From: Hydrogenophaga pseudoflava
GTDB taxonomy: Bacteria; Pseudomonadota; Gammaproteobacteria; Burkholderiales; Burkholderiaceae_C
Direction: 5' to 3'
DNA: 64,000 bases
Assembly: GCF_031020795.1 (NCBI RefSeq)
Contig: NZ_JAVHJP010000005.1
Span: 3,362-67,361, forward strand
Position 1 is the stretch's first letter. The number at the start of each line of letters is the position of its first letter. Below are positions 33,439 through 36,947 of the stretch, piece by piece. Position numbers and translations under genes: made by a program. The notes beneath the pieces are model-generated. The model was not told the DNA's origin. It searched no databases and worked only from the letters and a program-made list of their open reading frames with translations.

Positions 33439-34365
33439 TCAGAGCCTCGTGGCGATGGTGGAGAAGCCGTCGGCGCGCGAGGCCACGGGCTGCGGGATGG
33501 CCGATCCGCTGACCGGCAGCACCGGGAACAGCGCGTTGATCTGGCCGGTGCCGCTGGCGCCGAAGTACGGCGTGATCACTTCGGCCTGGCCGGTGTATTC
33601 GCTCCAGCCCAGCACGCCGAGCATCATGGCCGTGTCGTGCATGAAGCCCTCGCCGTGGCCCTTGGCGGCGTACTCGGGCAGCATCTCGCAGAAGTCCTTC
33701 CACTCGCCGGCCTGCCACATGCGCACGACCTCGTCGTCCAGGTGTTGCAGGAAGGGGCTCCAGACCTTGAAGGCGAATTCGGGCGCGAGGCCGTTCTGCG
33801 CGAAGCGGTGGCTGAGCGAGCCGCTGGCGAGGAAGGCGACGGTGCCGTCGTAGTGGTCTTCGACGGCCTTGCGCATGGCCCAGCCCAGGCGTGCGCTGTC
33901 GTTGAGGTAGTGCGAGGTGCACAGGGCCGAGACCGAGACCGCCTTGAAGTGCTGGTCGGCGTTCATGTAGCGCATGGGCACGAGGGTGCCGTATTCGGGC
34001 TGCAGCGTGGTGGCGTGGTGGGCCAGGGTTTCGACGCCGTGTTCGTTGGCGACTTTGGCGAGCAGTTGGCCGAGTTCGGGGTTGCCGGGGATGGCGTAGC
34101 CCATGTTGCTGATGAAGTGCGGCAGTTCGTTGCTGGTGTAGGTGCCTTGCCAGTGTTCGGCGCAGTTGAGGTGGTAGGTGGCGTTGACGAGCCAGTGGGT
34201 GTCGAAGACGACGATGGTGTCGACGCCGAGTTCCTTGCAGCGGCGTGCGATTTCGGTGTGGCCGTCGATGGCGTCCTGGCGGGTGCCTTTGCGGGGGCCG
34301 TCGAGTTCGCTGAGGTACATCGAGGGGACGTGGGTGATCTTGCCGACCAGTGCTACTTTGCCCAT
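33439..34365 (-). CDS. hpaD: 3,4-dihydroxyphenylacetate 2,3-dioxygenase
   Basis: 308 residues, type III (LigB-like) extradiol dioxygenase that opens homoprotocatechuate. VGKITHVPSMYLSE and FDTHWLVNATYH provide iron ligands, and ASGSLSHRFAQNG and HGEGFMHDTAMML are conserved. It is unrelated in fold to DmpB, so the window carries two unrelated extradiol dioxygenase types. The region just upstream (34366-34701) holds a repeat element separating it from hpaE. Confidence 0.93.
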   Translation of the reverse strand: MGKVALVGKITHVPSMYLSELDGPRKGTRQDAIDGHTEIARRCKELGVDTIVVFDTHWLVNATYHLNCAEHWQGTYTSNELPHFISNMGYAIPGNPELGQLLAKVANEHGVETLAHHATTLQPEYGTLVPMRYMNADQHFKAVSVSALCTSHYLNDSARLGWAMRKAVEDHYDGTVAFLASGSLSHRFAQNGLAPEFAFKVWSPFLQHLDDEVVRMWQAGEWKDFCEMLPEYAAKGHGEGFMHDTAMMLGVLGWSEYTGQAEVITPYFGASGTGQINALFPVLPVSGSAIPQPVASRADGFSTIATRL

Positions 34366-34437
34366 TTGGCTTGTCTCCTGTCTTGTGCGTTGTCTTGGCT
34401 GACGTTTGTGGTGGAAGGCGAGGTGGGTGGTGTACCT

Positions 34438-34661
34438 CCGCTCATGTCCCCCGGTCTGCGCTGCGCGCAGCCCTCCTCCTTTACTTCGCTGCGGCACACC
34501 ACCCTCCTCGCCTTCTCGCTGCGCATCGGCGCTCCACTGGTTCGCGCCCACGTTGCTTCTGGCTTGGAGGACCGGGGTACCCGGTGCAGCGAAGTAAAGG
34601 AGGAGAAACGGGCAAAGCCCGTTTCGGGGGACATGAGCGGAACCGGGTACCCCGGTCCTCC
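34438..34661. repeat. Nested inverted-repeat element between hpaE and hpaD
   Basis: Two 55-bp arms (34438-34492 and 34586-34640) are inverted copies: 16 outer and about 20 inner bases are identical, while the centre of each arm differs but is itself a small hairpin (CTGCGC.../...GCGCAG in one, AAACGGGC/GCCCGTTT in the other). A second, perfect 20-bp inverted pair (34566-34585 and 34642-34661, containing GGGGTACCC) brackets the right arm. No coding capacity. It looks like a mobile REP- or MITE-like element. The remaining flanks in this 336-bp gap (34366-34437, 34662-34701) show nothing. Confidence 0.8.
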
Positions 34662-34701
34662 GAGCCCGCCCAGGTAGAAGAGCGAAAAGGAGGAACGCAA
34701 A

Positions 34702-36177
34702 TCACACCCCCCAATGAGGAATGTGGTGCGACCCGAGAGAAACAGCAACGTTCTTGGGCTCCAGGAACACCTCGTAACTCCAGGTCCCCCCTTCGCGGCC
34801 AGTTCCGGAAGCCTTGGTGCCACCAAACGGCTGCCGCAAGTCGCGCACGTTCTGCGAGTTGACGAAACACATGCCCGCTTCAATCGAGGCCGCGACCCGG
34901 TGCGCCTTGCCGATGTTCTCGGTCCACACATAACTCGACAGACCGTAGGCGATGTCGTTGGCGATGCGGATCGCGTCCGCCTCGTCCTTGAACGGAATCA
35001 GACAGGCCACGGGGCCGAAGATCTCGTCCTGCGCGATCTTCATGCGGTTGTCCACGTCGGCGAACACCGTGGGCCAGACGTAGTTGCCGCCCGCCACATG
35101 CGCCGGCAGCTCGGCCGCATACGACGGCCGGTCCAGCCCGCCACACAACATCGTCGCGCCTTCCTTCGGCCCCAGCTCGATGTAGCTGCGCACCTTGGCC
35201 AGATGGGCCTTGGAAATCATCGGGCCGATGGTGGTCTTCTCATCCAGCGGGTCGCCCACCACGATGCGTTTGGCGCGCTCCGCGAACTTTGCGGCGAAGT
35301 CGGCGTAGATGCTTTGCTGCACCAGGATGCGCGAGCCCGCCGTGCAGCGCTCGCCGTTGTTGCTGAAGATCATGAAGATCGCTGCGTCGAGCGCGCGGTC
35401 CAGGTCGGCGTCGTCGAAGATCACGAACGGGCTCTTGCCGCCCAGCTCCATGCTGAACTTCTTCAGGCCCGCGGCCCGGGCGATGCGGTTGCCGGTGGCG
35501 GTGGACCCGGTGAAGCTGATGGCGCGCACGTCGGGGTGGGCGCACAGCGGTTCGCCGGCTTCCTTGCCGAAGCCGTGCACCACGTTGAGCACACCGGCCG
35601 GGATGCCGGCCTCCAGGGCCAGCTCGCCCAGGCGCGCCGCGGTCAGGGGCGACAGTTCGCTCATCTTCAGCACCGCCGTGTTGCCGAAGGCCAGACAGGG
35701 CGCGACCTTCCAGGTGGCCGTCATGAAGGGCACGTTCCACGGCGAGATCAATGCGCACACGCCGACCGGGTGGAACAGGGTGTAGTTCAGGTGCGTGGGC
35801 GTGGGGTAGGTGTGGCCGTCCACGCGGGTGCACATCTCGGCGAAGTAATAGAAGTTGTCCGAGGCGCGCGGGATCAGCTGCTTGCCGGTCTGCGCGATCA
35901 CCTGGCCGGTGTCTTCGGTTTCGGTGCGGGCGATCTCGGGCACGTGCTGGGCGATCAGGTCGCCCAGGGCGCGCACCTTCTTCGCGCGCTCGGTGGCGGG
36001 CAGTCCGGCCCAGGCCGGGAAGGCGTCTTTGGCGGCCTGCACCGCGGCGTTCACTTCTGCTTCGGTGCCCGAGGCCACTTCGGCCAGCACGCCCTGTGTG
36101 GCCGGGTTGATCGTTTCGAAGTAGTCGCTGCCGGCGACGGTCTTGCCGTTGATGAGGTGGTGAATGCGTTGCGTCAT
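34702..36177 (-). CDS. hpaE: 5-carboxymethyl-2-hydroxymuconic semialdehyde dehydrogenase
   Basis: 491-residue aldehyde dehydrogenase of the HpaE type (IHHLINGKTVAG start). The Glu base is in MELGGKSPF, the Cys nucleophile in NNGERCTAGSR and the NAD loop in FTGSTATGN. It oxidises the ring-cleavage product. Its ATG overlaps the hpaG2 stop. Confidence 0.94.
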   Translation of the reverse strand: MTQRIHHLINGKTVAGSDYFETINPATQGVLAEVASGTEAEVNAAVQAAKDAFPAWAGLPATERAKKVRALGDLIAQHVPEIARTETEDTGQVIAQTGKQLIPRASDNFYYFAEMCTRVDGHTYPTPTHLNYTLFHPVGVCALISPWNVPFMTATWKVAPCLAFGNTAVLKMSELSPLTAARLGELALEAGIPAGVLNVVHGFGKEAGEPLCAHPDVRAISFTGSTATGNRIARAAGLKKFSMELGGKSPFVIFDDADLDRALDAAIFMIFSNNGERCTAGSRILVQQSIYADFAAKFAERAKRIVVGDPLDEKTTIGPMISKAHLAKVRSYIELGPKEGATMLCGGLDRPSYAAELPAHVAGGNYVWPTVFADVDNRMKIAQDEIFGPVACLIPFKDEADAIRIANDIAYGLSSYVWTENIGKAHRVAASIEAGMCFVNSQNVRDLRQPFGGTKASGTGREGGTWSYEVFLEPKNVAVSLGSHHIPHWGV

Positions 36178-36947
36178 GCCTTGCTTTCGGAAGTGATCGT
36201 GTTGATGAGCGAGCCTATGCCGTCGATCTCGGTGACGACCACATCGCCGGGCTGGCAGTCGACGACGCCGTCGGGTGTGCCGGTCAGGATGAGGTCGCCG
36301 GGCATCAGGGTCATGAAGCCGCTGAAGTACTCGATCAGCGTGGCGACGTCGAAGATCATGTCTTTCGTGTTCCCCTGCTGCGTGACGTTGCCGTTGACCG
36401 TGGTGCGCAGCGCCAGCGCCTGGGGGTCGGGCACATCGGCCGCATCGACCAGCCAGGGGCCGATGGGCGTGCCGGTGTCGCGGTTCTTCACCTTGAGGTT
36501 GGGCCGGTACCAGTTCTCCAGGTAGTCGCGGATCGCGTAGTCGTTGGCGACGGTGTAGCCGGCCACGTATTGCAGCGCGTCGGCTTTCTTCACGCGTTTG
36601 GCGGGCTTGCCGATCACCACAGCCAGCTCGCACTCGTAGTGCATGAAGCTCACGCCGTCGGGCCGCACGGTGAAAGCCTTGTGGCCGATGAGCGAGGCCT
36701 CGCCCTTGACGAAGGCCAACGGTTCTTCGGGCGCCTTGAAGGCGAGTTCTTTCGCGTGGTCGGCGTAGTTCAGACCGAGCGCGAGCACGGTGCGCGGACG
36801 TGGCACCGGCGCGAGCGGCGGCAGCCAGACCACCTCGTCGAAGGACACGCGGCGGCCCTGGAAGGCGGGCGTGAGCAGCTCGAGTTGACCGTCGGCTTCA
36901 ACGGCGTCGTGGACCGCGCCGGCCCAGGCGATGCGGGCGTGTTTCAT
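36174..36947 (-). CDS. hpaG2: HpaG-type decarboxylase/isomerase, C-terminal-type subunit
   Basis: 257 residues of the FAH family; GLNYADHAKEL and YECELAVVIGK (metal E-x-E) with TGTPDGV near the end. In enterobacteria HpaG is one fused protein with two homologous halves; here the halves are separate genes overlapping by ATGA. The pair decarboxylates 5-oxopent-3-ene-1,2,5-tricarboxylate. Confidence 0.92.
   Translation of the reverse strand: MKHARIAWAGAVHDAVEADGQLELLTPAFQGRRVSFDEVVWLPPLAPVPRPRTVLALGLNYADHAKELAFKAPEEPLAFVKGEASLIGHKAFTVRPDGVSFMHYECELAVVIGKPAKRVKKADALQYVAGYTVANDYAIRDYLENWYRPNLKVKNRDTGTPIGPWLVDAADVPDPQALALRTTVNGNVTQQGNTKDMIFDVATLIEYFSGFMTLMPGDLILTGTPDGVVDCQPGDVVVTEIDGIGSLINTITSESKA

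Follow-up and report, generated by a model that had tools for sequence, protein, structure and literature searches.

Within the 64,000-nucleotide stretch of the Hydrogenophaga pseudoflava genome analysed here (the window), two minus-strand genes, hpaE (5-carboxymethyl-2-hydroxymuconate semialdehyde dehydrogenase; 34702-36165, stop at 34702; NCBIfam TIGR02299, 6.1e-238) and hpaD (3,4-dihydroxyphenylacetate 2,3-dioxygenase; 33439-34365, start at 34365; NCBIfam TIGR02298, 1.9e-132), are separated by a spacer of 336 nt (34366-34701). The start of hpaE is placed at the first residue matched by TIGR02299, which covers residues 157-642 of the open reading frame 34702-36633. Inside the spacer, we found the segment 34413-34665 to comprise a pair of hairpin units, each some 105 nt long, on opposite strands. 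Unit A is hpaD-proximal and operon-sense (34413-34517, minus strand; covariance-model match of 102.1 bits, E 6.8e-19) and comprises an outer stem, an internal loop and an inner hairpin; unit B is hpaE-proximal and operon-antisense (34561-34665, plus strand; 112.8 bits, E 2.6e-21), with the same architecture and different stems. Between them lies a spacer of 43 nt (34518-34560), the place at which versions of the element at other loci hold cargo. An exact pattern match locates a conserved core flanking the inner hairpin of each unit, at 34445-34483 on the minus strand in unit A (TAAAGGAGGAG ... CGGGGGACA; 0 expected by chance) and at 34595-34633 on the plus strand in unit B, the two matches in the window comparing with 0 in 100 shuffles. 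The variable inner hairpins, delimited by sequence and predicted fold, are 21 nt long including the closing G-C pair (34453-34473, minus; 34605-34625, plus). In genome coordinates (window offset 3361), the units correspond to G000:C18:37774-37878, minus, and G000:C18:37922-38026, plus.

The first-pass annotation of this DNA had described two inverted arms with swapped centres and a further inverted pair enclosing one arm, together forming a nested single element. In line with the first part of this description, an inverted-repeat search recovered the arms (34437-34492 and 34586-34641; 56 nt, 79% complementary), with the swapped centres accounting for most of the difference, and the pair around the right arm (34561-34590 and 34637-34666; 30 nt, 90%). 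The left arm also proved to lie within an inverted pair of its own (34414-34441 and 34488-34515; 28 nt, 86%), which the annotation did not contain. The arms and the right-arm pair are real, but the nested arrangement gives way to two self-contained hairpin units, one per strand. Both have very stable predicted RNA folds (unit B, -76.6 kcal/mol, z -10.3; unit A, -60.8 kcal/mol, z -7.0), with none of 200 shuffles as good in either case. On the operon strand (311 nt), the arm-to-arm stem is the predicted minimum-energy fold at -166.5 kcal/mol, the two units alone being predicted at -68.9 and -60.8. In some pairs, inspection suggested a central hairpin in the inter-unit spacer, which was rejected: for 16 spacers set against 200 mononucleotide shuffles, z was mostly near 0, three reaching -2.3 or below and the best -4.3. 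Using a simple consensus only, we detected no sigma-70-like promoter in 34300-34800.

The element belongs to a dispersed family. An initial search of the genome with a 261-nt query gave 20 matches, and a covariance model (R1) derived from an alignment of 14 units, with a fixed core and variable helices, gave 19 at E ≤ 0.1, distributed as 6 compact pairs, 2 pairs around cargo (about 1.0-1.3 kb between units) and 3 single units. The genome-wide count that the first-pass annotation had called for therefore reveals many copies rather than a single one. Across 60 genomes searched, 34 held a model match, namely the source genome, 32 of 35 further congeneric genomes, and 1 of 24 from other families of the order. 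The three congeneric genomes with no match are G004, G009 and G016, of which G004 is only 80% complete; one relative (G028) holds 55. The core pattern alone occurs in at least 118 stretches of GTDB genomes. Among the matches listed, record titles are mostly of Burkholderiales (Variovorax, Rhodoferax, Ramlibacter, Rubrivivax and others) and Xanthomonadaceae (Stenotrophomonas, Luteimonas, Lysobacter, Pseudoxanthomonas), together with some Rhodocyclaceae and others. Three loci holding units (L246, L274, L300) are titled Bacillus subtilis SK7B5; their G+C content of 68-69% does not fit that species, whose G+C is about 44%, and the title or the assembly is probably wrong. By blastn in its 'distant' setting (E ≤ 1e-3), plasmids gave only partial matches in 4 of 72,556 records, and none of 50,697 phage records matched. 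In viral contigs, the pattern was present in 4 stretches of 3 contigs, 2 of the stretches having a covariance-model match at E ≤ 0.5. One 42.8-kb viral contig carries a unit at each end, minus on the left (L335:446-554) and plus on the right (L338:7341-7436), which may reflect an assembly break at a repeat.

Going inwards, each unit has an outer stem some 24 bp long, then a 3x3 loop, a helix of 5 pairs in which tandem G.A is tolerated, an internal loop and a variable apical hairpin. Outer-stem pairing extends over about 24 positions and falls off beyond; among 138 units fetched by the core pattern alone, 123 have 19 or more of 23 flanking positions paired. The internal loop, TAAAGGAGGA / GGGGGACA, is purine-rich and nearly fixed. 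Across 314 distinct units the core is nearly invariant at R TAAAGG[A/G]GGA and GG[G/A]GGACA, with TA-A-GG-GGA / GG-GGACA as the invariant letters, a conservation that is partly an artefact of choosing units by what can be recognised. Two core columns, 41 and 68, co-vary (A-G in 262 units, G-A in 37, A-A in 8, C-G in 5, G-G in 2), and this reciprocal exchange of A and G on the two sides of the internal loop is not explained by a plain base pair. Helix 29-33/74-78 occurs most often as GCGAAA/ATTCGC (96), GCGAAG/ATGAGC (74; tandem G.A) and GCGACA/AGTCGC (23), followed by GCGGCA/AGCCGC (19), GTGAGG/ACGAAC (18), CGCAGG/ACGGAG (17) and rarer forms. Mimicry of a Shine-Dalgarno sequence by AAAGGAGG was considered and is disfavoured, being broken by the 37 of the 314 units that carry GGGGGA / GGAGGA in its place.

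The helices are maintained by compensatory change. For the 14-unit alignment from this genome, RNAalifold predicted 31 pairs, of which 27 are changed on both sides, and none of 500 shuffles scored as high on any of five measures; 87.1% of cells were paired compared with 59.1% in shuffles, and cells with double changes numbered 113 compared with 32.6. Orthologous hpaE-hpaD spacers behave likewise. The alignment of operon-sense units, restricted to those matching or nearly matching in length (12 of 16), has 24 of 38 pairs changed on both sides and 89.5% of cells paired (70.5% when shuffled); for operon-antisense units chosen in the same way (11 of 18), the corresponding values are 23 of 38 and 95.0% (78.6%). 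Four measures were reached by 0 of 500 shuffles for both units, and the number of pair types by 0 and 1 of 500. Sliding controls brought pairing down to 29-45% in all three alignments. Within the hpaE-hpaD orthologues, the mean pairwise difference is 0.05 and 0.07 in the core and 0.45 and 0.42 in the stem, a comparison that excludes L171, L174, L177 and L186 and leans to conservation as units with a broken core go unrecognised. That the core is kept in both hpa units while the stems change suggests a function that outlasts insertion, and not mobility alone.

Mismatch types in the stems identify the strand on which this selection acts. In the 128 of 138 core-pattern units with at least 12 Watson-Crick pairs, G.T mismatches number 243 and A.C 34 (265 and 51 in all 138); unit by unit, G.T exceeds A.C in 104, the reverse holds in 5, and 19 are ties. 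The ratio expected from composition alone is about 1.4 (0.116 v 0.085). Positions 1-23 of 298 units taken with no stem filter give 551 G.T and 87 A.C, while beyond the stem (positions 28-40) A.C outnumbers G.T; 131 representatives under 70% stem identity, a set filtered with G.T as paired, give 237 and 31. Since G.T stands far above A.C in the stems, the core-bearing strand is under selection as a folded single strand. The same excess is found in the hpa units whether operon-antisense (G.T 23, A.C 0; n=18) or operon-sense (30 and 8; n=16), and in tandem gene contexts in both sense (61 v 3; n=34) and antisense orientation (67 v 9; n=33), the tandem counts being built on the 314-unit set, whose filter favours G.T over A.C because it asks for pairing at 14 or more of 20 flanking positions and accepts G.T as a pair. 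The selection is therefore independent of host transcription. Tolerance of G.T is classically a property of RNA; the excess alone does not distinguish RNA from strand-specific single-stranded DNA.

We grouped units from 80 of the at least 118 pattern-fetched genome loci and from 4 viral stretches, dropping clusters near a locus end. Of the resulting 68 clusters, 34 are minus-plus pairs, 30 consist of a single unit and 4 form other arrays. Hence 34 of 38 multi-unit clusters are outward-facing pairs, minus on the left and plus on the right, and 29 of the 34 compact pairs of other genomes have a gap of 40-61 nt between units. At each end of a pair, the 3′ side of the core-bearing strand is directed outward, away from the element. 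Relative to genes, crudely called with a home-made ORF caller, the family is mainly intergenic, 86 clusters comprising 45 in tandem, 29 in convergent and 6 in divergent contexts and 6 over an open reading frame. Single units show no host-sense bias (10 antisense, 6 sense, 8 convergent, 2 divergent, 1 in an open reading frame). Single operon-sense units were seen between cbbS and cbbQ (L142:1622-1722, genes by Pfam; L150:1486-1586, by look) and after boxB (L133:2715-2815, gene by NCBIfam; L151:1559-1659, by look). In one coding gene, which we take from a motif to be mpl, a unit is read in frame and adds about 30 residues (L134:1498-1588; L073, at G000:C16:416997-417087; L251:7562-7652); this placement, found in this genome and an uncultured bacterium, accounts for 2 of the 314 units.

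A scan of 27 hpaE-hpaD loci in 26 genomes, with one extra 14.8-bit match disregarded and one locus (L160) beginning at hpaD, found at least one unit at 19 loci (19 genomes) and both units at 15. In three relatives (L166, L180, L182), hpaE and hpaD are separated by a short spacer and hold no element; L170 has a different spacer, and L168 and L178 gave no model match. By eye, apparent remnants consisting of one unit without a core lie upstream of hpaD at L176 and upstream of the unit at L139, L146, L149 and L153. In one relative rich in units (G028), visual inspection shows 15 of 20 fetched copies to be alike across the units and the spacer, and the resemblance fades some 20 nt beyond the stems. 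A search for direct repeats of 3-9 nt in the 40 nt next to the stems revealed no target-site duplication in these 15 copies, the best offset, for a 3-mer, being shared by 4 of 15. Given copies at many unrelated places, the look-alike copies in G028 and the element-free sites in three relatives, the element behaves as a small mobile element.

A few pairs enclose a gene. In this genome, the two units at C12 flank a 311-aa Mrr endonuclease (Mrr_cat 5.4e-39; PADLOC mREase_IV 1e-111). At proC-ubiA, the content differs between genomes: the open reading frame between the units encodes 116 aa in this genome, 180 aa in G025, 91 aa in G014, 269 aa in G017 (a Trypsin_2 match below cut-off) and 293 aa in G021, where the second unit is weak (26.5 bits), while in G011 only 29 nt and no open reading frame lie between them. 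Elsewhere, two units 1.5 kb apart surround a 230-aa open reading frame with a HEPN match below cut-off (L270), and in G027 a DUF2625 gene (1.1e-76) adjoins one whole and one apparently truncated unit. Among seven mechanically chosen cargo open reading frames scanned, Mrr is the sole one above the Pfam cut-off and no transposase was found. Apparently ordinary chromosomal genes between widely separated units (L261, L262, L280, L138) were not counted as cargo.

We could not match the element to any described family within Rfam and the literature searched, from which subscription papers were largely absent. At gathering score, Rfam returned nothing in the window at 34000-35000 (12 matches, all below) or in 11 other loci (1, below); no description of the element was found in the texts searched, and the single literature match to the two core strings concerned an unrelated subject. 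The first-pass annotation had proposed a modular REP/MITE family, and dispersal, interchangeable centres and the behaviour of a small mobile element bear this out, while the size and the GTAG/CGTC tag of REPs do not. REPs are described as 20-40 bp long and GTAG- or CGTC-tagged (PMC3733652). The family shares with REPs and BIMEs (REPINs) the many intergenic palindromic copies and inverted doublets, but its units are 105 nt long, have freely varying stems and a fixed internal loop, and bear neither tag. The MITE definition, a short non-coding element with terminal inverted repeats, applies to the inverted doublets that form 34 of 38 multi-unit clusters. MITEs, Correia/NEMIS and ERIC elements are likewise small, non-coding, mobile inverted repeats able to fold in mRNA, and the stem of about 24 bp is, by the usual rules, presumably long enough for candidate RNase III processing of the Correia/NEMIS type; here, in contrast, no target-site duplication was found, each arm has a conserved internal loop, and selection is strand-specific. 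Integron attC sites have conserved outer boxes and a variable apical part. They resemble our units as single-strand hairpins with a variable apical part and single-gene cargo, whereas in our units the outer stem varies, the inner loop is fixed and the units are inverted around the cargo. Rickettsia palindromic elements also place a palindromic unit in frame in a coding gene, but the present family is mainly intergenic, with few units so placed. The Betaproteobacteria toxic sRNA (RF02278), comparable as a multi-copy RNA family named for Betaproteobacteria, was rejected, its places in G000, G028, G025 and G047 overlapping no units; one match over gathering score in a relative (G028:C2:57320-57385) lies away from units.

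To explain the insert, we put hairpin-end recognition in mobility first because of the outward 3′ strand geometry, the dispersal, the cargo and the lack of host-orientation bias. The insert would then be one of the dispersed copies of a mobile inverted doublet, and a factor would recognise its hairpins on the outward 3′ strand; we assign this tentative reading a probability of roughly 0.4. Each arm is a strand-specific folded unit, and the factor, acting in trans, would recognise the hairpin on the core-bearing strand, which would be the strand cut or transferred at each end; it would move doublets that are empty and, now and then, doublets carrying one gene between their arms. The outward 3′ sides of the core-bearing strands are as expected of strands transferred at the two ends of an element. 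On this reading, the folded form would probably be single-stranded DNA and not RNA, mobility would be the function under selection, and an enzyme moving the doublet would presumably exist. Counting against it are the lasting conservation of the core at hpaE-hpaD, the RNA-like tolerance of G.T and the lack of a target-site duplication in the 15 copies of G028. In addition, most pairs are free of cargo, 30 of the 68 clusters are single units, and the sole Y1_Tnp gene of the genome (PF01797, at C1:770913) has none of the 19 units in its 3.3-kb locus. The last observation bears equally on the idea that this is an ordinary REP/BIME and that a RAYT (Y1 transposase) moves it, with which palindromic units, inverted doublets, intergenic positions and many copies would agree; given the divergent anatomy set out above and the isolation of that gene, we consider this very unlikely.

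Ranked a close second is a dedicated structured RNA. Each unit would be transcribed from its own strand, either outwards from the spacer or through read-through, and its internal loop would bind a protein or ligand; paired copies would provide the RNA regardless of the direction in which the region is read. The G.T excess, the exchange of tandem G.A with Watson-Crick pairs together with the A41/G68 swap, the core kept in situ at hpaE-hpaD, and the position near gene ends with few divergent contexts (by crude gene calls) would all fit, and we regard it as quite possible, if on balance doubtful, in view of the missing promoter by simple consensus, the unbiased orientation of single units, the lack of Rfam families at gathering score in the window segment and 11 loci, and the unit read in frame within a coding gene. 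A third account, already suggested by the first-pass annotation, is an intercistronic mRNA hairpin, in which the doublet in the operon transcript would change stability or processing and set different levels of hpaE and hpaD. In its favour, arm-to-arm and per-unit folds are both predicted to be very stable, and units also occur between cbbS and cbbQ and after boxB. Yet the operon-antisense unit is under the same or stronger pairing constraint on its own strand, and in tandem contexts generally both orientations show this constraint, so that a role in the hpaE/hpaD ratio is unsupported as a selected function; selection does not track the operon strand, orientation is unbiased, and three relatives combine hpaE and hpaD with no element. 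We hold this explanation to be improbable, while the predicted arm-to-arm stem may possibly have a side effect on hpa mRNA. Least probable of all, and scarcely credible, is a purely mutational product, with template switching at imperfect palindromes continually perfecting the arms and no selection. It would account for stems that change fast yet stay complementary, but a correction process of this kind would give no reason for G.T to outnumber A.C on one strand, and it leaves the nearly fixed core unexplained.

Returning to the mobile doublet, a more far-reaching version would be a previously undescribed mobility system of Burkholderiales and Xanthomonadaceae. Both ends of an element would be recognised in folded, single-stranded form on the outward 3′ strand, by way of a purine internal loop that stays fixed while the helices on either side evolve freely, and single genes, including defence genes, would be swapped between the ends at fixed chromosomal sites; we think this rather unlikely. 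If the link to cargo holds, the element would provide a route for single genes, such as the Mrr endonuclease, into fixed chromosomal slots. More broadly, a widespread structured family of this kind makes it possible to test directly if bacterial intergenic repeats are maintained in the form of folded single strands, be it of DNA or of RNA.
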